Below are positions 17,326-49,947 of a DNA stretch of 64,000 nt, in pieces. A program made the position numbers and the translations under genes. The notes below the pieces were generated by a model that was not told the DNA's origin, made no database searches, and saw nothing but the letters and a program-made list of their open reading frames with translations. The stretch is from Citrus sinensis. Taxonomy: Eukaryota; Streptophyta; Magnoliopsida; Sapindales; Rutaceae. Where the stretch lies: positions 16,283,501 to 16,347,500 of the forward strand of contig NC_068557.1 in the NCBI RefSeq assembly GCF_022201045.2, written 5' to 3'. Position 1 is the stretch's first letter. Every line of letters begins with the position of its first letter.

Positions 17326-17404
17326 TTCATACAATAATGAATTCTGAGATAACTAATCTTATTTGTAATTCATTTATTTGGTTTTCAGGAAACCAAGAGA
17401 TTAA

Positions 17405-29187: not shown

Positions 29188-30488
29188 TATCAAATATAGA
29201 ATTTGTATAAAATATGAATATTAATTTATGATAATTATTAATCAGGGAATTGTCAAAAATAGGCTTTACTACAATAGGTAACTTAAAAAATTCTTTATCA
29301 ATTAGAGTATGATTAGAGAAATACTTAAAATATGGGACACTAAATGACAATTTTGTTCGTTTATACTTAAAATCGCCTTTGACCATTTGATAAATTAATA
29401 ATTAATAATTTTTAAGTTTTATATAAAATTAGTACCTAACTTTTTAAGAGAAGTAGGAGTCAACCCATGGATTTCTTACTTGCCAAGTAGGATTAGGAAT
29501 TGGGATGAGAATGATGGATCAAAATTCTCTAATCTCCTATTGAGCAAAAATTAAAGAAATGATTCGTTGTTAATAAATAAAAATTAAAAAAGTTAAATAG
29601 AAAATTTTTAAAAGTTCAGAAGGGTTGACTCCGAATCTCAAAATGACCCTATGTCAACCATGACTTGATGTGAATGTGATTATCTAAAAGGGGGCCAAAT
29701 TGGTAATTCACTCTATGTTGATAAAGAAACTCCGGCAATGGCCAACGTGCACCACATTTTGCTATACAAAACCCATTTAAGGCCGGAATATGGTTGAAAA
29801 GTTAAGTAGTGCAAATTGATGCAGCCGACGTTATGGTGCCAAATTCATTTTATTTGATCATTGGCATCCGGCATTATCAAAATAAAATTACTGTTTACAT
29901 TCCCTTTTATTTAAATTTTTGGGGATAATAAAATGATTTTTCAATTAATGTTTTCTTGGGAGTTTAAATTTATACAACGACAAACTTATGATAAAATAAA
30001 ACAATCAATTAGTGTTAATTAATTAAAGGACCTAAATTCATAATATTTCAAAATTTGCACATACTTAGGAGCTAGCTTGATATTAGCTAAGAATGGCTTC
30101 TCAAACTGGCAAAAAGCATTAAGAGTGAAGCCTATTTTGAGTTGCTGTTAGACTTGCATCCAGACATGGAGTTGGAATTGGGTGCAGTTATTGTTTTTAA
30201 TTTCCTTTGTCCGTGGGCTGAGGCCTGAAAGTCACCATTTCTGTTCCTCAGTAGCCCTGCCTTGAGCTTAATCTCGTTGTTTGCTTTAGTACTTCAGTGT
30301 AAGAAGATATGGGGGCGCAGATTGATGAAATCTTAAACAAGCATCATTCACAGCAAAAAGGACAAAAATTATTCAAAAGATTTTTTGAATTAATATGTGA
30401 TATATAGAGTAATATTGCTCTTCCTATATTACAATATACAAATCAAAATGGTCACTTGGCAGTTGGCACTATCCAAGTTGGGGACTGG
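29188..30488. other. Intergenic DNA and 3' flank of WIP gene 3
   Basis: AT-rich with no gene. Bases about 30263-30488, next to WIP gene 3, are closely similar to the 3' flanks of genes 4 (48269-48481) and 5 (52288-52518), for example TGATGAAATCTTAAACAAGC, which marks them as duplicated together. Confidence 0.6.
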
Positions 30489-30773
30489 TTAATTAGGACC
30501 CCAGCAGCTCAAGTACATGACTGTCCTTAAAGACTCCTCTGATTGCTTAGCCTTGGGGTCTCTCATCAATTTGCTTGAAACCACAGCAGAAGATGAAGAA
30601 GAAGAAGAAGAAAGCTTCTTTGATGATTGAGAAACTGATGATCTTATATTGTTCTTGGCATGTTGGTGTAATGATCTTAGGGTGTAGTTCCATCTGCAGA
30701 ACCCTTGATCTTTCATGGCCTCAACTGCTGCAACACTTGCTGCTACCATCCATGCTCTGCTTGTTGAACTCAT
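30489..30773 (-). CDS. Wound-induced protein (WIP/DUF3774 family), gene 3 (mosaic)
   Basis: 94 residues from the ATG at 30773 ([20 protein letters not shown]) to TAA. The body is almost the same as genes 4 and 5: [17 protein letters not shown], a serine run, [19 protein letters not shown] and the ending YLSCWGPN. Its 3' flank also follows genes 4/5. Its 5' untranslated region and proximal promoter (30774-30880), in contrast, match those of gene 2, including the TTTAGAAAATTTGATGTTTT stretch and a sense-strand TATAAATAAG box near 30868-30877. The gene therefore seems to join a gene 4/5-type body to a gene 2-type promoter, perhaps by unequal exchange or conversion. Intact; function known only at family level. 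Confidence 0.9.
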   Translation of the reverse strand: MSSTSRAWMVAASVAAVEAMKDQGFCRWNYTLRSLHQHAKNNIRSSVSQSSKKLSSSSSSSSAVVSSKLMRDPKAKQSEESLRTVMYLSCWGPN

Positions 30774-32394
30774 CTTGAATCTATGTGAATGTCTCTCGGA
30801 TACTCTTTCACTTTGTTTAGCTTTAGAAAATTTGATGTTTTGATGGAGAAAATGGCACGGCGGGATTCTTATTTATACAAAGAGGGCCAGGGGTGAGGGG
30901 ATGGAGTAAAGGCCTAAAGTCATGGAAATATGTAAAACAAGTGGCCGCAGGCTTTAGCTTTTCAATTTCCTGCTGGTTTTGGGGCAAAGCAGTCAAAGCC
31001 AGTGGTTTCTATTTTGGCTGGTAGTTGGAACTGTATAATGACAGTAACACCCTTGCAGGAGCACTTGGTGCGATCAATTAGAAGGGGGACAAAATGGGTA
31101 TCGGATGCATCACGAAAAGATAAATTCAGCCAATGCGCGCACCTGGGTTTCCTTTATTTTATTAAGAAATCCATTGAAATTGAAGCGTACGGTTAAATTT
31201 GACATATTTGTAAAATTGAAGCGTATGGAAAAAAAAAAAAAAAAAAACAGCACGTTTCTTTGTTGAAACGTGGGTCGTCGGGGAAAGGTCCTCGGTTCTT
31301 AGGTCTTTTTTCCCATTTACGGATAAAATTAAAAAATCAAAATTAATTGAGGTAAAATAAGGAAATATGACTTTTTAATTATGTGGATTCCAAATTTCCT
31401 TACTCATCAATCAAGAAACTAAATTCCTCGAACAATAGAAATTGGCATCGGAAGCAAATTTGATTTTCAGTAATTTTTGCCAACCGAACAAAGGAAAAAT
31501 AAAGAGGAAATAGACAATCTCTCTTCTCTTGCCTTCATTTCTAACAACCGAACATGGCCTTATGTCTTTTTTTTTTTTTTTTCCATTTTAGGATAAAACT
31601 AGAAAATCAAAATTAAATGAGGATAAAATAAGAAAATCTGACCTTTTAACTTTGTGGAATCTAAGGATGCTTTTGGTAACTTTTTTATTGGGTGTTTTTT
31701 ATTTTCAAAAAATGAAAAACACAAAACATGTTTAGTTAAGCCATTTTTTAATAATTAGTAAAAAAGTTAGAGAACAATATATTTTTATTTTTAAACTTTT
31801 GTAAAGAAAACTCAAGAAAGCTAAATTGGTGTTCTTAAATCTTTTAATAACGATTAAAAAAGACAAGGCAAAAAGTGGTGCTGGCTCACTATTGTTATTG
31901 TTTCAATTATTACTTTATTAATTCTTTATTTAATTACTTTCACGTTATCCCTTCAATTTTTAGTTCTTCTATATCTTATATTTTTCTTCTTTATTGTAAC
32001 CACTCAAGAGTTCTTATCTCTTTGTATCAAGATCCAGGTATTTTTTTTTTAAATTTTTAAATTTTATTTATTGTTCATTAAAATTTTGGATGATTTTCTA
32101 TTATATCAAATATAAGATGAATATCCCTCTTTTTTTTTGTAATTTTTACATAGTAAGAATGAATAAATATAATTGTAGTACAAATTTTTATTTTTTTATA
32201 TGTTAACTAATTCTACATTTATTATTTTGTTTTCCATTTTATTTGTATTTCTTAAAATTAATAAATTATGAGAGGATTTTATGAAAATTATTATTGTTAT
32301 ATGAAATTTGATCTCATTTTGATTAAAATTATAATAAAAAATAAAATGAGTAAGTAAATTGAAGAAAATTATTTATAAAAAAATCTATATTATG
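30774..32394. other. Upstream region of WIP gene 3 and flank of the viral locus
   Basis: After the gene 2-like promoter there is no gene. A local direct duplication is visible: about 31305-31395 and about 31575-31668 both contain a TTTTTCCATTT / GGATAAAA / AAAATCAAAATTAA / GACCTTTTAA-type series. A 20-base A-run lies at about 31229-31248. The viral sequence begins at 32395 without any target duplication. Confidence 0.5.
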
Positions 32395-32758
32395 GTGAAG
32401 TACGTGGCGTTGTTATACCAGAACTACAACAGTTAAGACTGTTCTTAGGACCAGTAGTCCGCAAGCTCGGGTTTCCAGCCGATATACCTCTGTAATCAAA
32501 AACCTTTAAAACATTTTTCTCAGGTTATACAACCCAAAACAGACTTTCCTTTAGTCTAAAACAGGGTACCAAACCAGATAAGAAATGATCAAAAGTTTTC
32601 TGATGCACAGGATCCTTAGAAAAGGCAAGTGCAGAGCATACTTCCTTAGGTTTTCAAAATGAACAAATTTAATTCTTTATTCTTTTTCTTTCTTAGGACT
32701 TCATTTGCAGAGAGAGAGAAGAGTTTTAGGGATTCATGGTGTAAGAGAAAAACACGAG

Positions 32759-32764
32759 TTTATT
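32759..32764 (-). terminator. Poly(A) signal AATAAA, left viral arm
   Basis: AATAAA on the minus strand, 39 bp downstream of the TATA box, the short spacing that gives caulimovirid RNA its terminal redundancy. Confidence 0.6.
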
Positions 32765-32802
32765 TCTTTCAAACTTCTATATCTTACAAGCAAGGGGAGA
32801 AT

Positions 32803-32812
32803 CCTTTATATA
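32803..32812 (-). promoter_or_regulatory. TATA box, left viral arm
   Basis: TATATAAAGG on the minus strand in a CCTCCCC context, identical to the right-arm copy at 46611-46620; likely core of the viral RNA promoter. Confidence 0.75.
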
Positions 32813-33030
32813 GGGGAGGATTCTTGAGAAGATAGGACAGGACCCCTATCTTTTACATAATTGCACAACTTTAATTATTACAAAAGACAAAAGTGCTTTA
32901 ATAATTAAAGCATGACTTGGACAAAAGTATTAAAGTAAAAACAAACTTTAATAATTATGCAAACATAAAGCGAAACATCATTATGATAACAAGACAAACT
33001 ACTTTATTGAAAGCAACAAGACAAACAACT

Positions 33031-35313
33031 TTATGGAGAGCGGAGATTCATGTACTCGTCTTCGGATGAGCTTTCGGTCTCATCTGGGTCCGTATCACCA
33101 GAGTGAGGATGCTTTTGGAAGAAAGTTTTGGAGAGCTTTGGATGCTTACAGGAGGGACCACGGCATGGTGGATAAGGACAATTATAGTCTCTGGGAGTAC
33201 ACTTCGGAGTATACTGAGGGGAAGTTTGGGTGGCTTTGTCAACTTGGGATGGTTGAGCTGGTCGTTTGGAAGATTGGGTTGAGGGTCCTGGTACGGAGGG
33301 GCCAGGTTCATCCATTGTTGGTTGGGGAAACTGGTGGAGGTGTTGGCTCAGAGGAAGAAAATCTTCCCATGGATCTTGTGAGTCTTGGTAAAGAAAGTCA
33401 GTGTAGTCTGGTCGTTCTTCTTTGATGATGATGCCAGTGGACTTAGGTTTAGATATAGCAGATGGAGTGGGTATCATGAGAAGGTCATGTTGTGGACCTA
33501 AGGAGGTGTGAGAGATATCTTTAAGTGGCGGAGGTTGGTGGTTTAATTGGCAAAGGTAATTGTGCAGGACGTCTTGTATGTCATTTTCAATCACAGTTAT
33601 ATGTGGTGCAGTGAACCATTCATATACCTGATCTTGAGTCCAAAAGAGATGGGTGTCTGGATGTTGGAAGTATGGCCTGTGAATAATAAAAACTGATGTG
33701 AACATTTGTGCTTCAGGGGCAGGCATACGGTCAAGGTTGTAAATTTCGGACAGTTGTTGCAGTTTCTTTCTCCACCATGGGATGGGGGAGAACCATTCAA
33801 GTAGGGTCCAGGTAAGGGAGGTGGCGTTATCTGGATTAAGGAGGTGGTCCAGAGTGGGAGAAATGGGGAGGACTAACTTGGTTGCGTAAAGGACTGTTAG
33901 GCACCAGATGTACCATAACACGTCTTCAGTGGTGTCCCTGGCCGGATCAAGGGTTAAACCGGTAAGGAACAGATTTTCTGGGTGGAAAGTGGAAAAAGGA
34001 AAAGGGTCGGTGACAAGGTAGGCTTTCATGAAAAAGCGAAAGAGAGCTTTTCTTGCAAATTCTTGGATATCAAAAACAGAAGAGAAGGTTTTGTTGAAGG
34101 GAAAAGTTTTCTTGGTGAGAGCTTCTGGGGGTAGTGAGGTAGCCATGGAGATAATTGGAAAATGGTAGGTGGTGGAAAACAGGGTGAGAGGGCCTTGTGG
34201 TTTAGAGAGTCTGGAGAGCATATCAGGGATGAGGTTCTGGGATCCCTTTATATGCTTGACTGAAAAGTCATATTTGGAAAACCAATCTTTTAATCTGAGT
34301 AACATTTTTTCGGGAACAGTTTTACCTTTGAAATGAAAGATATTGGGGAAGGCTGAGCTGTCCATTCGGATGAGAAAATGGTGTCCAATCAGATGATACT
34401 CAAACTTTTTGATGCCATTCTTTACCGCTAAGATTTCTTTAAACACGCTATGGTAGTGCTTCTGTGTTTCAGAAAAATGTCCACTAGCGTAAGCGATAAA
34501 GTGTTCCTTGTCATTGAGTTCTTCGAGGAGGATGGCACCCCATGATTCATCACTTGCGTCTGTCTGTAATATGCGCTTGCCATCAGTAATCAACTTTAAA
34601 GGAGGCGGATTTTGCGCAATCTGCTTGAGAGTAGTGACAGCACGTGTGTGGTCAGCATTCCATTCTGGGGGCTGCTTTTTCAATAAAGCTGAGAGATGAT
34701 GAGTGTGATGGTCCACATGTGGGAGGAAATCACGGATGTAATTGATAATGCCGAGAAACTGTTGGATTTGCCTTTTGGAAAGTTGCTGATCTGGAAAGTG
34801 AAGCAATTCTTGGGCAATGTGCTTTCCTGGCTGGTAGTGTCCATCTTTAATGATCATACCAAGGAATTCAATATTATCTGTAGCAATGGTGCTTTTCTTG
34901 GCCGATAACATGATTCCATGACTTTGGATAATATCATAGAATTGGGACAATAGGTTGCGATGTTCTTCATGCGATCCTGAAAAAAGCAAAATATCGTCAA
35001 TGTAAATCAATGCATGATGCAAAATGGGCTGGAAGATTTGGACCATGGATTTTTGGAAAATGGAGGGGGCAGTTTTGAGGCCAAAGGGTAGGACGGTCCA
35101 TTGGAAATGGGCATTGGGAATACAAAAAGCGGTTTTGTAACGTTCGGAGGGTTCAATGCCGAGTTGCCAAAAACCAGATTTTAAATCAAATTTGGAAAAG
35201 ATCTGGGCATTTTTAAGAAAAGTAAACATGCTTTGTCTGCGGGGTAATGGAAACTTGTCATCTTGTAAAAACATGTTTAGGGGCTGATAATCAATGACTA
35301 GGCGTTTCTTTCC
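33031..35313 (-). pseudogene. Viral RT - RNase H - C-terminal region, left arm
   Basis: Continuation of the polyprotein after the internal TGA at 35314; the frame is open to its normal end (first ATG at 35274, 747 codons). The RT shows the FDLKSGFWQL and LPFGLKTAPSIFQ blocks and a YIDDILLF active site; RNase H begins at QTDASDESWGA. A C-terminal region of about 385 residues follows, ending in an acidic tail. Compared with the right arm, only four amino-acid differences were seen in 747: E/K in the block before PSERY, L/F beside YIDD, T/K beside the first RNase H aspartate, and T/A near the C-terminal IENDIQD. The motifs are kept, but the frame is cut off from the protease and upstream parts by the stop. 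Confidence 0.88.
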
Positions 35314-36438
35314 TCAGACAATTTCAGAATGTTTTTCAACATAAAAGGCTTGGCAAGCCCATTGGGAACTTGTGGGCTCAATTAAACCTTGGGCTAACAA
35401 TTGTGAACATTCTTGCTGGGCTAGGAGTAAGTCAGAAGGACTCATTCCTGGATGGGTAGCTTTAGTTGGGTTAATGTCTTCATTGAGTTTGAAGGGTAAC
35501 TTAATGAAGAAAGACTTATTTTTCCACAATGGATTTGGATGGGTGAACTCAGAATGGGACTCTGGACAGAAACTCAAAAGTTTGGTTGAAATATCCTGGT
35601 AAGACTGGGGAGTTTCAGACAAATTGTAGAGTTTCAGAATGTTTGTGAATGGTTTGAACATGGACTTGACTCGGATTCCAGTGGGAATGATTTGGAGGTG
35701 TTTGATTTGGTGAAGGATGTCAAATCCTAATAAGATATCCTTATTAGGAAGAGTGGAACCAATAACCTTGGTCCAAATGACACAATTTGGGAAGATTTGA
35801 ATACCAATGGATTTTTTGGTAATCAAAGAGGTGGTGAAGAGTTTGCCATTGACAGCTTTGAAATGTTCTTCAGACTGGGTCCAATATTCTGGTGGAAGAA
35901 TATGGGGGTTCAACATGCTTCGTTGGGCACCAGTATCTATAAGACCAATTGCTGGAATGGGCCTTTGAAATTTTGAGGGCAAGATCTGGAGTTTGATGGA
36001 TGGGATAGGAACTGTAGTATCAAGGGAGAGTAACTGTTGGTGGAAAATCACTTGAGACTGGTCACTATCTGAGTCAGAGGAATTTTGTAGTGCGAACACT
36101 GTTTCATCGTTGGGTTCATCTTGTTCAGAGAAATAGAATTCCAATTCATCTTTGGCAGGAGAGTAGTCTGTGGTTGCTTGAAGATGTTCAACCAACCGGA
36201 TGGCCTTTTCTCCTTTGTTGGGACAATCTTTGGCATAGTGGCCTTTTCTCTTGCAGATGAAACATCTGCTTGATTGCTTTCGTTTAAATTCTCTGGAGGG
36301 GGAAGATTTCTTTCTGAAGAACCGGTAGGGCTTTCGGGATCTGCGAGGTTTGGATGAAAATTCTGGAGTTTTGAATTTCCGAAAATGCCGTTTTTTCTTT
36401 GAACTGCAATCGCAATCCTTTTTCTTGTGGCATCTGAT
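35314..36438 (-). pseudogene. Viral zinc knuckle - protease - RT start, left arm, bounded by two stops
   Basis: This part of the polyprotein lies between an in-frame TAG (36436-36438) and TGA (35314-35316). It includes a basic stretch, the CCHC knuckle CFICKRKGHYAKDC and the retropepsin motif LIDTGAQRSML, then the first residues of the RT. The right arm reads CAG and CGA where these stops stand, so both are single C-to-T changes on the coding strand. A neighbouring AAA/AGA difference also separates the arms beside the TAG. Confidence 0.88.
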
Positions 36439-38997
36439 CTATAAATAAGGCTTTTTGCAAGCACTGCGGAAAGGTTCTTTGTCTTTCAACAGTTCTTTGA
36501 AAAACTGTTTTTGCTCGCAAAGTTTGTCAAGGCAGGTTTTGGCAAGCTGGAAGATTTTGCCAAGGGAGATGTTGTCTAGGGAAAGATTGGATGCTGTAAG
36601 TTGTCTCTGGATGTCAGGTTGGAGTTCTTCGGGGAGGGAAGCCAGAAAGACATGCTTTAATGTCGGCTCATTGAATCCATTAAGCTTATAGAACAGCAGG
36701 GACATTCGCTTATAATGGAAGTCAAGATCCTTAGCATTGAGGGAGCAGCATTTCATGTTGAGGTAGTCTCGTCTGGCAGCTTCAAAGACTGCAGAAGGGT
36801 CGCCAAGGAATTGATCATGAAGTACAGCAAGAGCACTTGAAACTTCTGGAAGGTCAACAAACTGTAACTGGCGATATTGTCCTAACGAATCAAACCAATC
36901 TCTTAGAGCACCCGTAAAACGAGTAGCAAATTCTCTAAGGACGGATTGAGTTGTTGCTCCTGTTCTTAGCATCTGCAGGTCAATCCAGGCAGACATTTCA
37001 TTGAGTCGGTCACGCCATTTATGAGATGGAAGATCATCAAATGTGAACCATGGACCATTTGACGATTTTTGACTGGGTGGATTGGGCTGGGCTGGAGAAG
37101 GTTGGTTTGTGGCAGAAGATTCAGGCATTTCTTCTTCAACTTCGGAGGGAATATCAACATATGGTTCTGTATGAGAGGTTTGGCCTTGATCAGGTTGAGC
37201 CATCAGGATTTTGGTAATATCAGCATAGGACTTTTCAGAGTTACTGGTGGATGCTGAAGATTCTGAGTCGGTTTCGGTATGGCTATCTGAAACAGCTAGA
37301 TTTGAATCAGAAGTTTGATCGTCAGTAGATGAATGGATGACTGCGTGAGCAGTAAATTGGTTCATGGGTTCTTTATCTTTTGATTGGGCAGGGACTGATA
37401 AAGGAGCTGGTGGTGAGGTCGGTGTAAAAGTAGGAGATGGTTGGCCAGGGATGGTCAGAGAGGAAGGATGAAGAGGGGGAGGTCGAGGCTGCGGTCTAGG
37501 TTTGGGTTTAGGTTTAGGTGGCGGTGGCAAAGGATTGTCTCTGAAAAGAGTATGAGTCATGCCAAATAACTTGGAAGGGTCATATTGTTTAATAGGAGAG
37601 AGCATAGAGGCAAAAGGATGGTAAGTTGGACCGATAGAAGGAATAAGAGGTGAACTGGTGAAAAGGGTAGGTCTCTGTTTTTCAGATTCAATCTGAGCAA
37701 GTTCAGCTTTTAATCGCCTGATTTCCCTTTCTTTTTGGTCAAATTCGGGACCATTGTATCTGTGGGCTAGCATGGCTCGTAACTCTGAATCGAGTTGGCC
37801 AATTCTGGACTGGAGATTTTGGTGGATCTGCTGCATCTGTGCAGAGATGGAGTCAACCTTTGTCTCAAGCTGTTCAGTTCGTAAACTGATTTTCTCAACT
37901 TTGGAATTGATATTGACCAAAGTATCATTCTGTGCTCTAGCATTTTGGGTTTGCCAGTTGAGGACTGATTCAAAAGGTTTGGGAGGTTCTAGGTGGCCAG
38001 ATGAGGTAATTGGTGAAGGGACAAAGGGTTTGGACACAACATTTCGTTGAGAATCTGTGTGGGTGTCTAAAGAAGGAAAAGAGGAAGAATAGTCGGATGA
38101 AGTAGATGAGAACATCATACAAGCCAGTGGTGGTGTGGGATTTGAGATTGGTGATGGAATCTCAGATTTGCAATGCTTTGCAATCCATGTGAGTTCTTTT
38201 CGGTAGATGGGTAATGGAGCCGGTGGAGGTGGAGGATCTGATGGTGGTTTAGGGTCACAATGGTGACATGGGACAGGAGGTTTTTTCTTTTTGGGTTTCT
38301 TTTTCCTTGTGGTTGCGTAATCATCGTCTTCTTCCCAATCATCCCAGCAGGGACAATTTGGGTCACACATGCCGGAACCAGGGGCATCCCATAGGAAATG
38401 GCCATTGTATTTGGCTGGATAAACAGGGTAGCCTTGAGAATTAAACCCTGTAATGGGCAGATCTTCCTGCGCTGTCTGAACAGCTGTGATCATTGAAGAA
38501 TAGGTAAAGGAGAGCCTAGGAGGCTCTTGTGGAGCACTGGGAGGTGGTTTAAAAGTCATTCTGACTGTTCCATCATGTCGTCTTTCAAACATGCCTTCAG
38601 AGGTCTGAATTGGAGCTGTATTGTTGTGGAACTGTTCATAGTTGGAGATCCATTCAAGAGGCATAAGCTTGATGAGCTCATGACGGGGAATTTGTCGGGG
38701 AATCTGGATGATTGTCGGGATCTGGTCAGATTCTGCTAACACCATGAGGGTGTCAGAGTGGTGTTCTGGAGCGGGTAGATCTAAGGCATGATTTTGAAGC
38801 CTGTAGACCAGTTGGTGATGTAAAGTGGCAATTTTTGCAGAAGAAATTTGTTCAGCACCTTGAATCTGAACTTGGACTTTCAAGGTTGTGGGCAAATTTG
38901 GATCTTGGAGAGAAAGATTGAAATTGGGATAGAAAGTGAGTAAAACACTTCCTGCATGAAGGGTTGTGAGGACAGTACCGATAACAGCATCTTGGTA
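36439..38997 (-). pseudogene. Viral movement-protein C-terminus, coiled coil and coat region, left arm
   Basis: Open on the minus strand from the palindrome centre to TAG at 36436. The first part (38427-38997, the spacer) exists only here and looks like the C-terminal half of a 30K-superfamily movement protein (YQDAVIGTVLTTLHAG at its start). Then come a Cys/acid motif (CDPNCPCWDDWEEDDD), a lysine run, CHHC, a proline-rich linker, a heptad-like coiled coil (KVEKISLRTEQLETKVDSIS and on), a Pro/Ser-rich linker and the coat domain around WFTFDDLPSHKWRDRLNEM. The open frame extends to 39156 only because the mirror-image right arm is translated in antisense: its first 45 or so codons are an artefact of the junction. 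Confidence 0.85.
38427..38997 (-). other. Single-copy spacer at the centre of the viral palindrome
   Basis: 571 bp of viral sequence present once. On its left it continues the left arm without a break; on its right it meets the start of the inverted copy. The crossing point is near 38998, where CTGTTTATCC of the right arm abuts the CAGTACCAAG of the left arm in opposite orientation. It would form the loop of a hairpin RNA. Confidence 0.85.
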
Positions 38998-39002
38998 CTG
39001 TT

Positions 39003-41596
39003 TATCCAGCCAAATACAATGGCCATTTCCTATGGGATGCCCCTGATTCCGGCATGTGTGACCCAAATTGTCCCTGCTGGGATGATTGGGAAGAAGACGA
39101 TGATTACGCAACCACAAGGAAAAAGAAACCCAAAAAGAAAAAACCTCCTGTCCCATGTCACCACTGTGACCCTAAACCACCATCAGATCCTCCACCTCCA
39201 CCGGCTCCATTACCCATCTACCGAAAAGAACTCACATGGATTGCCAAACATTGCAAATCTGAGATTCCATCACCACTCTCCCACCCAACACCTATCGTCC
39301 AACCACTGGCTTGTATGATGTTTTCCTCTACTTCTTCAGATTACTCTTCTTCCTTTCCTCCTTTGGAACCCCATACAGATTCTCAACGAAATGTTGTGTC
39401 CAAACCCTTTATCCCTTCACCTATTACCTCCACTGGCCACCTAGAACCTCCCAAACCTTTTGAATCAGTCCTCAACTGGCAAACCCAAAATGCTAGAGCA
39501 CAGAATGATACTTTGGTCAATATCAATTCCAAAGTTGAGAAAATCAGTTTACGAACTGAACAGCTTGAGACAAAGGTTGACTCCATCTCTGCACAGATGC
39601 AGCAGATCCACCAAAATCTCCAGTCCAGAATTGGCCAACTCGATTCAGAGTTACGAGCCATGCTAGCCCACAGATACAATGGTCCCGAATTTGACCAAAA
39701 AGAAAGGGAAATCAGGCGATTAAAAGCTGAACTTGCTCAGATTGAATCTGAAAAACAGAGACCTACCCTTTTCACCAGTTCACCTCTTATTCCTTCTATC
39801 GGTCCAACTTACCATCCTTTTGCCTCTATGCTCTCTCCTATTAAACAATATGACCCTTCCAAGTTATTTGGCATGACTCATACTCTTTTCAGAGACAATC
39901 CTTTGCCACCGCCACCTAAACCTAAACCCAAACCTAGACCGCAGCCTCGACCTCCCCCTCTTCATCCTTCCTCTCTGACCATCCCTGGCCAACCATCTCC
40001 TACTTTTACACCGACCTCACCACCAGCTCCTTTATCAGTCCCTGCCCAATCAAAAGATAAAGAACCCATGAACCAATTTACTGCTCACGCAGTCATCCAT
40101 TCATCTACTGACGATCAAACTTCTGATTCAAATCTAGCTGTTTCAGATAGCCATACCGAAACCGACTCAGAATCTTCAGCATCCACCAGTGACTCTGAAA
40201 AGTCCTATGCTGATATTACCAAAATCCTGATGGCTCAACCTGATCAAGGCCAAACCTCTCATACAGAACCATATGTTGATATTCCCTCCGAAGTTGAAGA
40301 AGAAATGCCTGAATCTTCTGCCACAAACCAACCTTCTCCAGCCCAGCCCAATCCACCCAGTCAAAAATCGTCAAATGGTCCATGGTTCACATTTGATGAT
40401 CTTCCATCTCATAAATGGCGTGACCGACTCAATGAAATGTCTGCCTGGATTGACCTGCAGATGCTAAGAACAGGAGCAACAACTCAATCCGTCCTTAGAG
40501 AATTTGCTACTCGTTTTACGGGTGCTCTAAGAGATTGGTTTGATTCGTTAGGACAATATCGCCAGTTACAGTTTGTTGACCTTCCAGAAGTTTCAAGTGC
40601 TCTTGCTGTACTTCATGATCAATTCCTTGGCGACCCTTCTGCAGTCTTTGAAGCTGCCAGACGAGACTACCTCAACATGAAATGCTGCTCCCTCAATGCT
40701 AAGGATCTTGACTTCCATTATAAGCGAATGTCCCTGCTGTTCTATAAGCTTAATGGATTCAATGAGCCGACATTAAAGCATGTCTTTCTGGCTTCCCTCC
40801 CCGAAGAACTCCAACCTGACATCCAGAGACAACTTACAGCATCCAATCTTTCCCTAGACAACATCTCCCTTGGCAAAATCTTCCAGCTTGCCAAAACCTG
40901 TCTTGACAAACTTTGCGAGCAAAAACAGTTTTTCAAAGAACTGTTGAAAGACAAAGAACCTTTCCGCAGTGCTTGCAAAAAGCCTTATTTACAGATCAAA
41001 TGCCACAAGAAAAAGGATTGCGATTGCAGTTCCAAGAAAAAACGGCATTTTCGGAAATTCAAAACTCCAGAATTTTCATCCAAACCTCGCAGATCCCGAA
41101 AGCCCTACCGGTTCTTCAGAAAGAAATCTTCCCCCTCCAGAGAATTTAAACGAAAGCAATCAAGCAGATGTTTCATCTGCAAGAGAAAAGGCCACTATGC
41201 CAAAGATTGTCCCAACAAAAGAGAAAAGGCCATCCGGTTGGTTGAACATCTTCAAGCAACTACAGACTACTCTCCTGCCAAAGATGAATTGGAATTCTAT
41301 TTCTCTGAACAAGATGAACCCAACGATGAAACAGTGTTCGCACTACAAAATTCCTCTGACTCAGATAGTGACCAGTCTCAAGTGATTTTCCACCAACAGT
41401 TACTCTCCCTTGATACTACAGTTCCTATCCCATCCATCAAACTCCAGATCTTGCCCTCAAAATTTCAAAGGCCCATTCCAGCAATTGGTCTTATAGATAC
41501 TGGTGCCCAACGAAGCATGTTGAACCCCCATATTCTTCCACCAGAATATTGGACCCAGTCTGAAGAACATTTCAAAGCTGTCAATGGCAAACTCTT
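39003..41596 (+). pseudogene. Viral coiled coil, coat, zinc knuckle and protease start, right arm proximal copy
   Basis: In-frame viral sequence from just after the movement-protein region (YPAKYNGHFLWD) to the middle of the protease, where it is interrupted at 41596 by the flipped patch. The open frame then runs on meaninglessly to 41705. It keeps CAG and CGA-type codons where the left arm has changes, and contains the CCHC knuckle and DTGAQRSML. A cluster of differences from the left arm lies at about 39275-39430, including 9 extra bases (SHPTPIVQPLAC against SNPTPPLAC), although the outer arms are nearly identical. Confidence 0.85.
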
Positions 41597-42026
41597 TGGC
41601 AAGCCCATTGGGAACTTGTGGGTTCAATTAAACCTTGGGCCAACAATTGTGAACATTCTTGTTGGGCTAGGAGTAAGTCAGAAGGACTCATTCCTGGATG
41701 GGTAGCTTTAGTTGGGTTAATGTCTTCATTGAGTTTGAAGGGTAACTTAATGAAGAAAGACTTATTTTTCCACAATGGATTTGGATGGGTGAACTCAGAA
41801 TGGGACTCTGGACAGAAACTCAAAAGTTTGGTTGAAATATCCTGGTAAGACTGGGGAGTTTCAGACAAATTGTAGAGTTTCAGAATGTTTGTGAATGGTT
41901 TGAACATGGACTTGACTCGGATTCCAGTGGGAATGATTTGGAGGTGTTTGATTTGGTGAAGGATGTCAAATCCTAATAAGATATCCTTATTAGGAAGAGT
42001 GGAACCAATAACCTTGGTCCAAATGA
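41597..42026 (-). repeat. 430-bp viral patch inserted in antisense orientation
   Basis: Identical in order to left-arm bases 35351-35780 (constant offset 6246), so it is antisense relative to the surrounding right arm. It carries the end of the protease region and the stretch up to the RT. It has private substitutions (for example T at 41623 where the left arm and the distal copy have C or its complement), so it is not a copy of either neighbour made very recently. Confidence 0.88.
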
Positions 42027-42034
42027 AACATGTA
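42027..42034. other. 8-bp filler at a viral rearrangement junction
   Basis: AACATGTA matches neither the flipped patch before it nor the viral sequence after it. Short untemplated or copied filler at junctions is typical of end-joining repair in plants. Confidence 0.65.
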
Positions 42035-43586
42035 CCCAATCAAAAGATAAAGAACCCATGAACCAATTTACTGCTCACGCAGTCATCCATTCATCTACTG
42101 ACGATCAAACTTCTGATTCAAATTTAGCTGTTTCAGATAGCCATACCGAAACCGACTCAGAATCTTCAGCATCCACCAGTGACTCTGAAAAGTCCTATGC
42201 TGATATTACCAAAATCCTGATGGCTCAACCTGATCAAGGCCAAACCTCTCATACAGAACCATATGTTGATATTCCCTCCGAAGTTGAAGAAGAAATGCCT
42301 GAATCTTCTGCCACAAACCAACCTTCTCCAGCCCAGCCCAATCCACCCAGTCAAAAATCGTCAAATGGTCCATGGTTCACATTTGATGATCTTCCATCTC
42401 ATAAATGGCGTGACCGACTCAATGAAATGTCTGCCTGGATTGACCTGCAGATGCTAAGAACAGGAGCAACAACTCAATCCGTCCTTAGAGAATTTGCTAC
42501 TCGTTTTACGGGTGCTCTAAGAGATTGGTTTGATTCGTTAGGACAATATCGCCAGTTACAGTTTGTTGACCTTCCAGAAGTTTCAAGTGCTCTTGCTGTA
42601 CTTCATGATCAATTCCTTGGCGACCCTTCTGCAGTCTTTGAAGCTGCCAGACGAGACTACCTCAACATGAAATGCTGCTCCCTCAATGCTAAGGATCTTG
42701 ACTTCCATTATAAGCGAATGTCCCTGCTGTTCTATAAGCTTAATGGATTCAATGAGCCGACATTAAAGCATGTCTTTCTGGCTTCCCTCCCCGAAGAACT
42801 CCAACCTGACATCCAGAGACAACTTACAGCATCCAATCTTTCCCTAGACAACATCTCCCTTGGCAAAATCTTCCAGCTTGCCAAAACCTGTCTTGACAAA
42901 CTTTGCGAGCAAAAACAGTTTTTCAAAGAACTGTTGAAAGACAAAGAACCTTTCCGCAGTGCTTGCAAAAAGCCTTATTTACAGATCAAATGCCACAAGA
43001 AAAAGGATTGCGATTGCAGTTCCAAGAAAAAACGGCATTTTCGGAAATTCAAAACTCCAGAATTTTCATCCAAACCTCGCAGATCCCGAAAGCCCTACCG
43101 GTTCTTCAGAAAGAAATCTTCCCCCTCCAGAGAATTTAAACGAAAGCAATCAAGCAGATGTTTCATCTGCAAGAGAAAAGGCCACTATGCCAAAGATTGT
43201 CCCAACAAAAGAGAAAAGGCCATCCGGTTGGTTGAACATCTTCAAGCAACTACAGACTACTCTCCTGCCAAAGATGAATTGGAATTCTATTTCTCTGAAC
43301 AAGATGAACCCAACGATGAAACAGTGTTCGCACTACAAAATTCCTCTGACTCAGATAGTGACCAGTCTCAAGTGATTTTCCACCAACAGTTACTCTCCCT
43401 TGATACTACAGTTCCTATCCCATCCATCAAACTCCAGATCTTGCCCTCAAAATTTCAAAGGCCCATTCCAGCAATTGGTCTTATAGATACTGGTGCCCAA
43501 CGAAGCATGTTGAACCCCCATATTCTTCCACCAGAATATTGGACCCAGTCTGAAGAACATTTCAAAGCTGTCAATGGCAAACTCTT
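42035..43586 (+). repeat. 1552-bp direct duplication of 40045-41596
   Basis: Bases 42035-43586 repeat 40045-41596 at a constant offset of 1990 with very few changes (one is T at 42124 against C at 40134). The two copies share variants that differ from the left arm (aspartate in SASTSDSEK, asparagine in the left arm), so the duplication happened within the right-arm lineage. Confidence 0.9.
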
Positions 43587-46392
43587 CACCACCTCTTTGA
43601 TTACCAAAAAATCCATTGGTATTCAAATCTTCCCAAATTGTGTCATTTGGACCAAGGTTATTGGTTCCACTCTTCCTAATAAGGATATCTTATTAGGATT
43701 TGACATCCTTCACCAAATCAAACACCTCCAAATCATTCCCACTGGAATCCGAGTCAAGTCCATGTTCAAACCATTCACAAACATTCTGAAACTCTACAAT
43801 TTGTCTGAAACTCCCCAGTCTTACCAGGATATTTCAACCAAACTTTTGAGTTTCTGTCCAGAGTCCCATTCTGAGTTCACCCATCCAAATCCATTGTGGA
43901 AAAATAAGTCTTTCTTCATTAAGTTACCCTTCAAACTCAATGAAGACATTAACCCAACTAAAGCTACCCATCCAGGAATGAGTCCTTCTGACTTACTCCT
44001 AGCCCAGCAAGAATGTTCACAATTGTTAGCCCAAGGTTTAATTGAGCCCACAAGTTCCCAATGGGCTTGCCAAGCCTTTTATGTTGAAAAACATTCTGAA
44101 ATTGTCCGAGGAAAGAAACGCCTAGTCATTGATTATCAGCCCCTAAACATGTTTTTACAAGATGACAAGTTTCCATTACCCCGCAGACAAAGCATGTTTA
44201 CTTTTCTTAAAAATGCCCAGATCTTTTCCAAATTTGATTTAAAATCTGGTTTTTGGCAACTCGGCATTAAACCCTCCGAACGTTACAAAACCGCCTTTTG
44301 TATTCCCAATGCCCATTTCCAATGGACCGTCCTACCCTTTGGCCTCAAAACTGCCCCCTCCATTTTCCAAAAGTCCATGGTCCAAATCTTCCAGCCCATT
44401 TTGCATCATGCATTGATTTACATTGACGATATTTTTCTTTTTTCAGGATCGCATGAAGAACATCGCAACCTATTGTCCCAATTCTATGATATTATCCAAA
44501 GTCATGGAATCATGTTATCGGCCAAGAAAAGCACCATTGCTACAGATAATATTGAATTCCTTGGTATGATCATTAAAGATGGACACTACCAGCCAGGAAA
44601 GCACATTGCCCAAGAATTGCTTCACTTTCCAGATCAGCAACTTTCCAAAAGGCAAATCCAACAGTTTCTCGGCATTATCAATTACATCCGTGATTTCCTC
44701 CCACATGTGGACCATCACACTCATCATCTCTCAGCTTTATTGAAAAAGCAGCCCCCAGAATGGAATGCTGACCACACACGTGCTGTCACTACTCTCAAGC
44801 AGATTGCGCAAAATCCGCCTCCTTTAAAGTTGATTACTGATGGCAAGCGCATATTACAGAAAGACGCAAGTGATGAATCATGGGGTGCCATCCTCCTCGA
44901 AGAACTCAATGACAAGGAACACTTTATCGCTTACGCTAGTGGACATTTTTCTGAAACACAGAAGCACTACCATAGCGTGTTTAAAGAAATCTTAGCGGTA
45001 AAGAATGGCATCAAAAAGTTTGAGTATCATCTGATTGGACACCATTTTCTCATCCGAATGGACAGCTCAGCCTTCCCCAATATCTTTCATTTCAAAGGTA
45101 AAACTGTTCCCGAAAAAATGTTACTCAGATTAAAAGATTGGTTTTCCAAATATGACTTTTCAGTCAAGCATATAAAGGGATCCCAGAACCTCATCCCTGA
45201 TATGCTCTCCAGACTCTCTAAACCACAAGGCCCTCTCACCCTATTTTCCACCACCTACCATTTTCCAATTATCTCCATGGCTACCTCACTACCCCCAGAA
45301 GCTCTCACCAAGAAAACTTTTCCCTTCAACAAAACCTTCTCTTCTGTTTTTGATATCCAAGAATTTGCAAGAAAAGCTCTCTTTCGCTTTTTCATGAAAG
45401 CCTACCTTGTCACCGACCCTTTTCCTTTTTCCACTTTCCACCCAGAAAATCTGTTCCTTACCGGTTTAACCCTTGATCCGGCCAGGGACACCACTGAAGA
45501 CGTGTTATGGTACATCTGGTGCCTAACAGTCCTTTACGCAACCAAGTTAGTCCTCCCCATTTCTCCCACTCTGGACCACCTCCTTAATCCAGATAACGCC
45601 ACCTCCCTTACCTGGACCCTACTTGAATGGTTCTCCCCCATCCCATGGTGGAGAAAGAAACTGCAACAACTGTCCGAAATTTACAACCTTGACCGTATGC
45701 CTGCCCCTGAAGCACAAATGTTCACATCAGTTTTTATTATTCACAGGCCATACTTCCAACATCCAGACACCCATCTCTTTTGGACTCAAGATCAGGTATA
45801 TGAATGGTTCACTGCACCACATATAGCTGTGATTGAAAATGACATACAAGACGTCCTGCACAATTACCTTTGCCAATTAAACCACCAACCTCCGCCACTT
45901 AAAGATATCTCTCACACCTCCTTAGGTCCACAACATGACCTTCTCATGATACCCACTCCATCTGCTATATCTAAACCTAAGTCCACTGGCATCATCATCA
46001 AAGAAGAACGACCAGACTACACTGACTTTCTTTACCAAGACTCACAAGATCCATGGGAAGATTTTCTTCCTCTGAGCCAACACCTCCACCAGTTTCCCCA
46101 ACCAACAATGGATGAACCTGGCCCCTCCGTACCAGGACCCTCAACCCAATCTTCCAAACGACCAGCTCAACCATCCCAAGTTGACAAAGCCACCCAAACT
46201 TCCCCTCAGTATACTCCGAAGTGTACTCCCAGAGACTATAATTGTCCTTATCCACCATGCCGTGGTCCCTCCTGTAAGCATCCAAAGCTCTCCAAAACTT
46301 TCTTCCAAAAGCATCCTCACTCTGGTGATACGGACCCAGATGAGACCGAAAGCTCATCCGAAGACGAGTACATGAATCTCCGCTCTCCATAA
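42058..46392 (+). CDS. Viral polyprotein portion, right arm distal copy (coat - CCHC - protease - RT - RNase H - C-terminal region)
   Basis: An uninterrupted frame of 1444 codons from ATG 42058 to TAA 46392; this ATG is internal in the viral polyprotein, so the frame is N-terminally truncated. Coat domain near residues 105-300, a Lys/Arg-rich stretch near 310-365, CCHC knuckle CFICKRKGHYAKDC at 368-381, retropepsin DTGA at 477-480, RT active site YIDD at 788-791, RNase H from about 934 (first catalytic aspartate 936) to about 1055. A region of about 385 residues follows; it contains a Cys-rich motif (CTPRDYNCPYPPCRGPSCKH) and an Asp/Glu/Ser tail. In caulimovirids the coat packages DNA, the protease cleaves the polyprotein and RT/RNase H copies the pregenomic RNA. 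No dedicated promoter reads into it, and the movement-protein region is missing upstream. Petuvirus-like is inferred from the single-polyprotein layout. Confidence 0.9.
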   Translation: MNQFTAHAVIHSSTDDQTSDSNLAVSDSHTETDSESSASTSDSEKSYADITKILMAQPDQGQTSHTEPYVDIPSEVEEEMPESSATNQPSPAQPNPPSQKSSNGPWFTFDDLPSHKWRDRLNEMSAWIDLQMLRTGATTQSVLREFATRFTGALRDWFDSLGQYRQLQFVDLPEVSSALAVLHDQFLGDPSAVFEAARRDYLNMKCCSLNAKDLDFHYKRMSLLFYKLNGFNEPTLKHVFLASLPEELQPDIQRQLTASNLSLDNISLGKIFQLAKTCLDKLCEQKQFFKELLKDKEPFRSACKKPYLQIKCHKKKDCDCSSKKKRHFRKFKTPEFSSKPRRSRKPYRFFRKKSSPSREFKRKQSSRCFICKRKGHYAKDCPNKREKAIRLVEHLQATTDYSPAKDELEFYFSEQDEPNDETVFALQNSSDSDSDQSQVIFHQQLLSLDTTVPIPSIKLQILPSKFQRPIPAIGLIDTGAQRSMLNPHILPPEYWTQSEEHFKAVNGKLFTTSLITKKSIGIQIFPNCVIWTKVIGSTLPNKDILLGFDILHQIKHLQIIPTGIRVKSMFKPFTNILKLYNLSETPQSYQDISTKLLSFCPESHSEFTHPNPLWKNKSFFIKLPFKLNEDINPTKATHPGMSPSDLLLAQQECSQLLAQGLIEPTSSQWACQAFYVEKHSEIVRGKKRLVIDYQPLNMFLQDDKFPLPRRQSMFTFLKNAQIFSKFDLKSGFWQLGIKPSERYKTAFCIPNAHFQWTVLPFGLKTAPSIFQKSMVQIFQPILHHALIYIDDIFLFSGSHEEHRNLLSQFYDIIQSHGIMLSAKKSTIATDNIEFLGMIIKDGHYQPGKHIAQELLHFPDQQLSKRQIQQFLGIINYIRDFLPHVDHHTHHLSALLKKQPPEWNADHTRAVTTLKQIAQNPPPLKLITDGKRILQKDASDESWGAILLEELNDKEHFIAYASGHFSETQKHYHSVFKEILAVKNGIKKFEYHLIGHHFLIRMDSSAFPNIFHFKGKTVPEKMLLRLKDWFSKYDFSVKHIKGSQNLIPDMLSRLSKPQGPLTLFSTTYHFPIISMATSLPPEALTKKTFPFNKTFSSVFDIQEFARKALFRFFMKAYLVTDPFPFSTFHPENLFLTGLTLDPARDTTEDVLWYIWCLTVLYATKLVLPISPTLDHLLNPDNATSLTWTLLEWFSPIPWWRKKLQQLSEIYNLDRMPAPEAQMFTSVFIIHRPYFQHPDTHLFWTQDQVYEWFTAPHIAVIENDIQDVLHNYLCQLNHQPPPLKDISHTSLGPQHDLLMIPTPSAISKPKSTGIIIKEERPDYTDFLYQDSQDPWEDFLPLSQHLHQFPQPTMDEPGPSVPGPSTQSSKRPAQPSQVDKATQTSPQYTPKCTPRDYNCPYPPCRGPSCKHPKLSKTFFQKHPHSGDTDPDETESSSEDEYMNLRSP

Positions 46393-46610
46393 AGTTGTTT
46401 GTCTTGTTGCTTTCAATAAAGTAGTTTGTCTTGTTGTCATAATGATGTTTCGCTTTATGTTTGCATAATTATTAAAGTTTGTTTTTACTTTAATACTTTT
46501 GTCCAAGTCATGCTTTAATTATTAAAGCACTTTTGTCTTTTGTAATAATTAAAGTTGTGCAATTATGTAAAAGATAGGGGTCCTGTCCTATCTTCTCAAG
46601 AATCCTCCCC

Positions 46611-46620
46611 TATATAAAGG
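46611..46620 (+). promoter_or_regulatory. TATA box, right viral arm
   Basis: TATATAAAGG preceded by CCTCCCC; likely core of the pregenomic RNA promoter. Confidence 0.75.
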
Positions 46621-46658
46621 ATTCTCCCCTTGCTTGTAAGATATAGAAGTTTGAAAGA

Positions 46659-46664
46659 AATAAA
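46659..46664 (+). terminator. Poly(A) signal AATAAA, right viral arm
   Basis: AATAAA 39 bp past the TATA box; in a complete viral genome it would be ignored on the first pass and used on the second. Confidence 0.6.
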
Positions 46665-47028
46665 CTCGTGTTTTTCTCTTACACCATGAATCCCTAAAAC
46701 TCTTCTCTCTCTCTGCAAATGAAGTCCTAAGAAAGAAAAAGAATAAAGAATTAAATTTGTTCATTTTGAAAACCTAAGGAAGTATGCTCTGCACTTGCCT
46801 TTTCTAAGGATCCTGTGCATCAGAAAACTTTTGATCATTTCTTATCTGGTTTGGTACCCTGTTTTAGACTAAAGGAAAGTCTGTTTTGGGTTGTATAACC
46901 TGAGAAAAATGTTTTAAAGGTTTTTGATTACAGAGGTATATCGGCTGGAAACCCGAGCTTGCGGACTACTGGTCCTAAGAACAGTCTTAACTGTTGTAGT
47001 TCTGGTATAACAACGCCACGTACTTCAC

Positions 47029-48268
47029 TTTTCAAACTAAACTACCAAACAAAATTTCATTTAAAAAAAATCACATAAAAAACATAATTCTTTTTCTCTA
47101 AAATAAGAGCCAAAAACAATTTTACTTTTACTTTTTCTTTCCTTTTATAATAATACCCTTGTAACAATATTATTGGAGATGTTAATGAAAATAAAAATGA
47201 TAATTTATTAAATTAGCCAAATTTTTATATTACTATCTTATTTTTAGGATTAATTTTGTAAAAACAAATTCTATAAAATAATTATTAGTAACATTGTTAC
47301 AAGGATATTAAACATTGCTTTAAGTTGGTTGATGTTGATTTGTTTATAATTAATTATTAACAAGATTGTTGTATAGATACAAAAAATACTAATTCTTTCA
47401 TACTACTAATTATTGGTTAATTTGTTAAAATTAATTTTTTTAAAAATAAATAAATTAATATCAAGAATATTGTTGCAAGATATTATTGACAAAGCTAAGA
47501 AAAATAAGAATAAAAATACAAGGTATTTAACTGTAAGATATTTTGAGATTTTTTTTAACATATAAAAACTAAACAAACACTTAAATCAAAATATATGAAC
47601 TAAATCAATATTTATTTTTTTTATAAAATTAAAAAAAAGGTACTCGGGGAGTGATTTAAGGTACTTATCTAAACAGTGGTATTTTAAGTTTTCATCAAAA
47701 GCGTGGGGATTCGCAAGTAGCTTGTCTTAACTTTTAAAGCACATCTCATCTCATTTGAGTGAAGACCATTGTGAGTTACTGAAAACCATCATTGTTATTG
47801 GCAGACTTTCATGGAAGCTGAAATTGGATGCATTTGCTATCAATTTCCTTTCTCCGCAAGTCCTACAATTATTTGTCTTCAAAATTCCTACCATGCTCAT
47901 ACTATATTATTATAGTAGTAATTATAAAAGATCAAATTGTGCTGGTCTCCTTTGCTGCAAATATAATTTATATTTATTTAATATATGTTGATGGTGTTTC
48001 GTATTTTCTCAGTGAATTTCCACTCTTTATACAACTAACAGGCGAACATAGTAAGATTCTTAAGTTATGATTTGACTCATTAAACAACAGGTTCTAACTG
48101 GTTTAGAAATGTCAAATCAAAGGCCAACAGATTGTTTTTGTTCAATAGATTGTACGTAAGAAATCGTTTAGACCTTCTCCCAAGAAAATTTTAAAAAAAC
48201 CCACTAAAAATATTAATAAATAAAAATGATAAAAAAGGTAAAAAGTAAAAAAACTAAAACTGAAGTCT
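47029..48268. other. Intergenic DNA between the viral locus and WIP gene 4
   Basis: AT-rich with no gene. From about 47940 it becomes similar to 51965 onward (for example CTGCAAATATA and TTTCCACTCTTTATA), which marks the left limit of the tandem segmental duplication. Confidence 0.55.
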
Positions 48269-48481
48269 TTAGCTTAATCTTGTTGTTTGCTTTAGTACTC
48301 CAGTGTAAGATTATATGGGGGCAGAGATTGATGAAATCTTAAACAAGCATCAACCACAGCAAAAAGGACAAATTTGTTCAAAAGATTTTTCGAATTAGTA
48401 AGTGATATATAGAGCAATATTTACAATATACAAATCAAAATGATCTCTTCGCACCAAACCAAGTTGGGGAATGGGGACCAG

Positions 48482-48769
48482 TCAATTAGGACCCCAGCAG
48501 CTCAAGTACATGACTGTCCTTAAAGACTCCTCTGATTGCTTGGCCTTGGGGTCTCTCATCAATTTGCTTGAAACCACTGCAGCAGAAGATAAAGAAGAAG
48601 AAGAGGAAAGCTTCTTTGATGATTCAGAAACTGATGATCTTATACTGTTCTTGGCATGTTGGTGTAATGATCTGAGCGTGTAGTTCCATCTACAGAACCC
48701 TTGATCTTTCATGGCCTCAACTGCTGCAACACTTGCTGCTACCATCCATGCTCTGCTTGTTGAACTCAT
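48482..48769 (-). CDS. Wound-induced protein (WIP/DUF3774 family), gene 4
   Basis: 95 residues, ATG at 48769. The N-terminus ([20 protein letters not shown]), [17 protein letters not shown], the serine-rich centre ([20 protein letters not shown]), KLMRDPKAK and the C-terminal [18 protein letters not shown] are all present, so it is complete. It differs from gene 5 at only a handful of residues. A sense-strand TATATAAATATG box lies at about 48884-48895, roughly 115 bp upstream. The conserved block is at 49067-49142. The nearest neighbour on its 3' side is the viral locus 1.45 kb away, whose outward promoter would transcribe it in antisense if active. Confidence 0.9.
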
Positions 48770-49947
48770 TCTTAATTTTCTATATATTCTTCAGATGCCC
48801 TTCTCTCTTTTGCTCTTTGTGAACTCTTTTAAAAGATCTGCTTTTGCTTTGATGGAGTAAACGATACGCGGGGGTTTCATATTTATATACACTTGGTTAG
48901 TGGTTTAGTTGATTGAGCACACAGATGGAAAAAGATGAAATAAACAAAACCAGTGGGCTCTGTCTGGCTAGCGGCAATTATTTGGTAGAGCACAATTACT
49001 TTTATGTCCTTACAAAAGCACGAACTAAATGGGGACGAAATGGGGATTTAGGCACTTCGAGACAGAACAATTCTGGTAGCTGAGCTAGCGGTTTCACTTA
49101 CTAAAATTCAAATTAGCCCGGAGTTTTGGAGTGAAAACCACCTGGGATTTTTGGAAGCCTGGGGAACGTAACTGTCGCTCTGCAGTGAAGTAAACAACTA
49201 GATAAAATTGCTTTAATTGTAGATTAGTTGATAAATCTCAAATTTAATATATTATTTTTTATAATTAAAAGTTCATTTAAAAATTGTTATGTTAATTTTT
49301 TATCTTTATAACTTTATTTAATTTGTGTAGGGAAATTTCTTGATATTAATTATGGGAAAGTTTATAATAATTATAGGAGTTTTTCTCTTTATGTTAATTT
49401 TTGTAAACTTCTCTATACTAATTTAATTATAAAAATTAAATAAAATTATAATTACAAGAAGTTAATTTTTTATAATTATAATTTCATTTAAAAATTATCA
49501 TCTTATATTTTGAGATTTTTTTTGAATTTAGGCTATTTTTATAATTATAATTTTTTTTTATTTTTTAAAATTTAATAGAATAAAATAGTTTTTAATTCAT
49601 TTAGTAATAAAATGATAATTTTTAATATCAAAATGATTGAAGGATATAAGTTTAGAAGTAAAGATAGTGTAAAAAATATGTCAAAATTTTATAATAGTTA
49701 AATGTATATATGACAAAATAAAAGTGATATAGAGATAATTTTACTTATTATAAAATTAATTTTTGAATTTGTTTCTCCGTGATTCATTCAACATGTTGTG
49801 TATGACCTTGTAAATTGGCGAAACTTCCATGCACTGTTATCAATGATAAAATTATTCAGTAGATTATTTTATATCATAATTGCCATCATATTAAAAATAA
49901 TAATAATACATGGAACGATCATCAGGTGATTATACATTTGTAGTAAT
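48770..49947 (-). promoter_or_regulatory. Upstream region of WIP gene 4
   Basis: Contains the TATA box near 48884-48895 and the block 49067-49142 shared with genes 2 and 5 (AGCCCGGAG...GGAGTGAAAACCACC). Beyond 49200 the DNA is very AT-rich with no gene. Confidence 0.55.

Follow-up and report, generated by a model that had tools for sequence, protein, structure and literature searches.

The locus at positions 32395-47028 of the window (the whole stretch of sweet orange DNA that was analysed, 64,000 nt, C2:16283501-16347500 of genome G000, which comprises 300 Mb in 11 contigs) is a palindrome of two endogenous pararetrovirus copies lying head to head, and it probably arose from replication-derived viral DNA that was open at the minus-strand discontinuity, at the primer-binding site (PBS), was joined head to head by microhomology and was then taken up whole at one break in the chromosome. 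Such capture of a replication end draws its support from the PBS-proximal ends of both copies, the 7-bp junction between them, flanks that belong to one host repeat, the failure to see a target-site duplication, and the preference for the same viral end elsewhere in the genome.

Self-comparison of the window gives outer arms at 32395-37388 and 42035-47028 that are 99.66% complementary (17 mismatches in 4,994) with the constant coordinate sum of 79423 that had been reported for them, and inner arms that match in inverted orientation at 99% (35837-38131 and 39302-41596) and 97% (38132-38426 and 38998-39292). A 5-kb match at 99.66% excludes chance, and the palindrome is real. With the left copy on the minus strand and the right one on the plus strand, the head-to-head arrangement given in the preliminary description is borne out, as is the inverted relationship of the arms; they are not plain mirror images, however, since the right arm is longer by ~1,990 bp. 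It contains a direct duplication of 1,552 bp (40045-41596 repeated at 42035-43586, with 1 mismatch), and the two repeats are separated by 435 bp (41596-42030) that match 43639-44073 in inverted orientation and are joined with ~1-bp overlap on one side and ~4 nt of filler on the other. Between the inner arms, 38427-38997 is indeed a single-copy stretch of 571 bp, but the suggestion of a distinct loop element must be rejected: the stretch is coding sequence of the virus and forms the 5' end of the left copy, and as a query it finds at least 40 places in the genome at 98-100% identity (the best 40 of 585 candidates were scored). The features of the locus are as follows.

32390..39004, minus strand: left viral copy, its outer end 1 nt before the PBS and its inner end at the head-to-head junction
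38427..38997, minus strand: single-copy 'loop', the movement-protein-coding part of the left copy, which the right copy lacks
38998..39004, no strand: head-to-head junction, a 7-bp microhomology
38998..41596, plus strand: right viral copy, first segment, lacking the first ~1,170 nt of the virus
41596..42034, minus strand: rearranged insert, an inverted copy of 43639-44073 followed by ~4 nt of filler
42035..47028, plus strand: right viral copy, second segment, which opens with the 1,552-bp repeat of 40045-41596 and stops 6 nt short of the PBS
38001..38180, minus strand: hypervariable patch, with different haplotypes in the left and right arms, each also present in other genome copies
46611..46618, plus strand: viral TATA box of the right arm, pointing outward, with AATAAA at 46659 and 46742
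32805..32812, minus strand: viral TATA box of the left arm, pointing outward
31661..32389, plus strand: left half of a dispersed host repeat, split by the insertion
47029..47116, plus strand: right side of the same dispersed host repeat, aligned with paralogues of the left-flank repeat

The identification of the virus as an endogenous pararetrovirus is upheld by the caulimovirid domain set in its open frames. When the open-frame pieces were searched separately they matched the Pfam families MP (left copy only), zf-CCHC, RVP, RVT_1 and RT_RNaseH, which follow one another along the virus in the caulimovirid order and supply the movement protein, zinc knuckle, aspartic protease, reverse transcriptase (RT) and RNase H of a Caulimoviridae polyprotein. 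The tRNA-Met PBS that marks the genome start in this family is present as well: in uninterrupted copies TGGTATCAGAGC follows the viral end immediately, although in the window's own two copies it is cut off. The best match of the RT piece among solved structures is an 'Enzymatic polyprotein' (8r0s_A), its matches to sweet orange proteins named hypothetical reach at most 93% identity over part of its length, and a scan of viral contigs with this piece returned three pattern matches, none of which was confirmed. The descriptions in PMC3894270 and PMC9794742 suggest the genus Petuvirus as a putative placement. The polyprotein frame has two in-frame stops in the left copy and is split by the rearrangement in the right copy; counted from the PBS in copy L007, ~590 nt of the viral 5' part are absent from the left copy and ~1,170 nt from the right. 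Both copies are thus defective, and the endogenous caulimovirid is probably non-functional.

The preliminary description held that both outer ends stop at the same viral base, and that this suggests a viral replication end or a defined break and not random breakage. In uninterrupted copies the sequence is ...GTACTTCAC-CATAAC-TGGTATCAGAGC and closes with the tRNA-Met PBS, where minus-strand synthesis starts. Compared with these copies, the right arm ends at 47028, 6 nt before the PBS, and the left arm at ~32390, 1 nt before it and with 5 nt more viral sequence, so that one common viral base for the two ends is rejected; both ends nevertheless lie at the start of minus-strand synthesis, and their position there, together with the behaviour of other copies, supports the second part of the claim. 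The role of the tRNA-Met PBS is described in the part of PMC4241990 that was available. Thirty copies were fetched from the 46 places listed for the terminal 200 bp of the virus, and in 24 of these, the window's two included, the viral 3' end breaks between -6 and +12 nt of the PBS, a zone 18 nt wide; the other six read on through the PBS. One copy, L038, passes it with two substitutions inside the PBS (judged by eye). These 24 breaks represent fewer than 24 independent virus-host joints: they include six sides of three tail-to-tail pairs and the two window ends, four others (L021, L022, L030 and L032) are local duplications of the viral end that have no host joint, and clusters on C8 and C3 each supply more than one. 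This lessens their weight in favour of capture at the PBS. A 260-bp query across the PBS listed 45 places, with 24 ending at query positions 211-219 (PBS nt 5-13) and 21 reading through, 12 of the latter in the array near 47 Mb on C3, whereas a 260-bp coding query was matched over its full length at all 40 places scored (the best 40 of 256 candidates, among which shorter matches may be hidden). A query from the 5' side listed 41 places, of which 10 begin at query position 4-12, just within the PBS.

At the inner junction the natural sequence of the left copy runs through 39004 and then diverges, and that of the right copy starts at 38998, which leaves an overlap of 7 bp (38998-39004); with uniform base use assumed, the chance of sharing seven or more bases at a random joint is ~4e-4. 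A 100-base query centred on this junction matched at full length only in the window among 40 scored places, and at the other 39 listed places the match stops at base 57 of 100. An assembly or sequencing artefact, either a chimeric inverted read or collapsed repeats, might be suspected in a genome with many near-identical copies, and the locus is known here from the assembly alone. We consider it extremely improbable given a junction that is matched nowhere else among the places scored, differences private to each arm, the 2-kb difference in arm length, and flanks that differ from each other and form the two sides of one repeat.

The host sequence at the insertion point also bears on when the palindrome was formed. 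The left flank is part of a dispersed host repeat, three paralogues of which (L070, L072 and L074) align to both flanks; between the flank matches there are 98 bp in L070 and 90 bp in L074 that are absent from the window, while L072 has a deletion of its own there. The multiple alignment also allows the first nine nucleotides of the right flank to be set next to the left flank; the insertion would then be clean, and the missing stretch would stem from another event 9 nt away. Since these nine nucleotides align either way, a target deletion of 90-98 bp seems the simpler reading, and the idea of a clean target site is weakened, with 90-98 bp of paralogue sequence missing at the insertion point or no more than 9 nt from it. 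No target-site duplication was seen at the insertion borders under either alignment. As the flanks together make up one host repeat, the palindrome represents one insertion, and a single insertion into one repeat, which follows from either alignment, argues against later inversion of a chromosomal copy. Inverted chromosome duplications do occur by break and fusion or by fork switching, and a single integrated copy could have been inverted and duplicated by such a route after its insertion. We regard this as very unlikely, since the duplication ends at the viral ends without including any host flank, those ends are replication ends, and the two flanks belong together.

The two arms are closely but not strictly clonally related. 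Over the terminal 1,480 bp they are each other's nearest relatives with 2 differences, the next-best relative differing at 7 positions from the left arm and at 5 from the right, and they share 2 bases that are absent from the other 29 rows compared (three poorly aligning rows were dropped). Comparison of 19 single-site differences between the arms with other loci gives 16 in which one of the alleles is confined to a window arm and three in which other copies have both, although seven of the checked differences rest on one or two other loci; bit-score differences suggest that copies in the array near 47 Mb on C3 share one more right-arm allele, so that 16 of 19 is an upper figure. In the patch at 38001-38180, 24 positions and a further 9 bp set the arms apart, and among 35 rows from other loci, some of which overlap the same copy, 11 are left-like and 24 right-like. 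Two pre-existing patch haplotypes and shared polymorphisms call for two different parent genomes or for one or more events of recombination or conversion, and the patch haplotypes lead us to reject a palindrome made strictly from a single template; the arms would be close siblings with at least one recombination and not an exact self-copy. Both repeats of the right arm depart from the left arm at seven sites, and there they agree with each other; the duplication therefore seems to be later than the left-right split, or else to have been homogenised. The divergence is 0.34% if every one of the 17 outer differences postdates the insertion. Substitution rates of ~2e-9 to 1.3e-8 per site per year would then put the age at about 0.1-0.9 million years; since a few of the arm differences are inherited, this is an upper figure.

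These relationships are also what bear most directly on a fold-back origin, in which one minus strand started from the PBS, stalled ~590 nt short of the far end, folded on an inverted 7-mer and self-primed a second strand. The expected product is precisely one palindrome, head to head, whose loop is single-stranded and whose two ends lie where the minus strand begins, and the geometry fits, with the junction as the inverted 7-mer and the 'loop' as the strand between the 7-mer and its partner; the 16 of 19 scattered differences with an allele found only in a window arm agree with it too. A single template cannot yield the two pre-existing haplotypes that the arms carry in the 180-bp patch, nor the polymorphisms shared with other copies at three of the 19 sites and probably at one more, and fold-back would thus need a later template switch or gene conversion; the extra rearrangement of the right arm is not predicted either. 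We consider this origin rather unlikely, and return to the joining of separate viral molecules as the best explanation. The starting substrate would be viral DNA with its minus-strand discontinuity, at the tRNA-Met PBS, left open; such molecules would be joined head to head at the 7-bp microhomology, and the product would enter the chromosome in one piece at one break. The parent molecules would have been near-sibling genomes of one infection, end joining would have done the work, and the locus would now be a relic whose viral promoters face outward and give no hairpin RNA. This explanation has difficulties of its own: the arms are not strictly clonal, with two patch haplotypes and three of 19 shared sites, perhaps one more; the target is not clean, 90-98 bp of two paralogues being missing near the insertion point; and the direct duplication and inverted insert of the right arm need a further event.

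The preliminary description proposed that the locus could act as a built-in source of small RNAs, the palindrome being transcribed and the double-stranded RNA diced to silence the virus and its relatives. The inverted arms are long and nearly perfect, and inverted-repeat viral DNA, a feature of the siRNA loci of the tomato TSA type, is found in the window. In tomato, inverted-repeat endogenous caulimovirids give 22-nt siRNA linked to DCL2, according to the portion of PMC10377300 available, and small RNAs matching citrus endogenous pararetrovirus have been found in citrus trees, without assignment to a locus in the part of PMC5408698 at hand. The sequence of the window itself lends the proposal no support: the TATA boxes, at 46611 (+) and 32812 (-), and the leaders that follow them run outward from both arms into host DNA, and judging from this orientation the viral promoters would not transcribe the hairpin, so that a hairpin transcript would require host read-through of ~14.6 kb. 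Seven ORFs of at least 140 aa lie in the flanks; a scan of six of them gave Pfam hits to nothing but a copia retroelement at 16.4-20.2 kb, 12 kb off. No inward-reading gene was found among these six, a limited scan that may have missed one. A bacterial promoter scan is not meaningful for a plant virus. We therefore consider a small-RNA function of this locus unlikely, the more so as loci with converging promoters elsewhere in the genome are better candidate sources.

These loci are tail-to-tail viral pairs, one at 18.78 Mb on C7, one at 38.35 Mb on C3 and two near 47 Mb on C3 (47.15 and 47.08 Mb). The pairs on C7 and at 38.35 and 47.15 Mb on C3, thus on two chromosomes, have in common the junction CTG-GTAT-CAG inside the PBS, and in each the arms share a local variant, both arms reading CATAAC in the C7 and 47.15-Mb pairs and CCTAAC in the 38.35-Mb pair; the junction of the 47.08-Mb pair is CTG-AT-CAG. 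The four joints lie at C7:18,780,88x, C3:38,350,13x, C3:47,150,94x and C3:47,082,44x. A further head-to-head pair, at 13.081 Mb on C1, is joined at the PBS like the four tail-to-tail pairs. The arms are identical over ~1,480 bp in the C7 and 47.15-Mb pairs and differ at ~4 positions over ~1,480 bp in the 38.35-Mb pair, after subtraction of the central GTAT, which self-comparison counts as two mismatches. Promoters in these pairs converge ~0.42 kb from the joint, so that RNA made there would consist of the leader in hairpin form, and by sequence the tail-to-tail palindromes would be better candidates for hairpin RNA than the window locus.

We tentatively suggest that such inverted viral dimers may have been self-primed before integration at a displaced DNA end in the PBS and then captured by the chromosome, although we do not hold this to be the likelier account. 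A strand ending ...CTGGTATCAG would fold on its CTG/CAG ends and copy itself, giving the tail-to-tail palindrome with CTG-GTAT-CAG. The recurrence of one junction on two chromosomes, the local variant shared by the arms of each pair, and the identity of the C7 arms, whose next relative differs at 11 positions, all favour self-priming. On the other side, the arms in the clusters near 38 and 47 Mb on C3 are at least as similar to nearby copies as they are to one another, so that local amplification has blurred the signal; a junction of the CTG-GTAT-CAG form joins virus to a different repeat in L025; and microhomology joining of two ends would serve equally well. If the self-priming account is true, the tail-to-tail loci would transcribe a leader hairpin and silence themselves on arrival.

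Plant pararetroviruses do not need integration in their cycle, and the Caulimoviridae have a circular genome of ~7-10 kb. At 47.06-47.18 Mb on C3, viral copies form an array with a spacing of mostly 7,217 bp and several orientation flips, and its head-to-tail spacing is compatible with a circular or concatemer origin; the citrus endogenous pararetroviruses (CitPRV or Carrizo EPRVs, near petunia vein clearing virus; PMC3894270) measure, as described there, 6,663-6,996 nt. Like the window virus, they have a polyprotein with MP, zinc finger, RT and RNase H beside a tRNA-Met site, many related sequences in sweet orange and an ORF most variable at its 5' end; unlike them, the window copies are head to head, truncated and rearranged. 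The tomato 'TSAs' (Valli et al., as described in the available part of PMC10377300) share with the window an inverted-repeat form of rearranged endogenous caulimovirid DNA, but have a high density of 22-nt small RNA, whereas the window was analysed as DNA sequence and its viral promoters face outward. Inverted caulimovirid loci with 22-nt siRNA are thus already on record for tomato. In the endogenous rice tungro bacilliform virus-like segments, as far as PMC526188 was available, virus-host junctions gather as they do here at the intergenic region and strand discontinuities, at a regional scale in rice and within 18 nt around the PBS for 24 of 30 fetched ends in citrus; inverted pairs joined at the PBS end are, set against those segments, a feature of the citrus loci. 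A 2023 review calls the mechanism of pararetrovirus capture speculative and, in the portion available, names end joining, concatemers and recombination (PMC10377300). A narrow literature search, with sources available in part, found no description of tail-to-tail pararetrovirus palindromes, and within that search the sharp end preference at the PBS and the recurring tail-to-tail joint seem to be the least described aspects.

In summary, the 24 of 30 ends within 18 nt of the minus-strand start and the pairs joined at the PBS lead to the testable proposal that capture acts on viral DNA in replication, by way of its open end, and the orientation of the promoters predicts that hairpin RNA would come from a viral promoter at tail-to-tail and not at head-to-head loci.

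A second head-to-head viral palindrome is present in the sweet orange genome, with its centre at the primer-binding site (the tRNA-Met site at which viral minus-strand synthesis starts), a short spacer and arms that are about 99% alike. Four loci (L018, L026, L034 and L081) are tail-to-tail viral palindromes, in which the joint lies inside the primer-binding site, and a CTG-GTAT-CAG junction is common to three of them. On contig C8 viral ends are fused to a host repeat, which has its own TTGGTATCAGAGCC, a primer site like that of LTR retroelements; the joint at L025 has the same form as those of the viral palindromes.

C1:13,081,166-13,081,678, second head-to-head viral palindrome (L045)
C8:10.08-10.13 Mb, viral ends fused to host repeat (L001, L009, L024, L025)
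C3:47,060,000-47,185,000, viral array (L031-L038, L049-L062, L068, L081)

The array on C3 comprises numerous viral copies, spaced mostly at 7,217 bp, whose orientation reverses several times, two of these flips being tail-to-tail joints; the whole is a nested inverted repeat of more than 100 kb.

Within the window itself, two further features were noted.

14574-20174, copia-type LTR retrotransposon remnant, with a tRNA-Met primer site and matches to gag and RT
30261-30780 and 48267-48776, two stretches that resemble each other, revealed by self-comparison

The paired stretches, which are 88% alike and run in the same direction, flank the viral insertion, one on each side.
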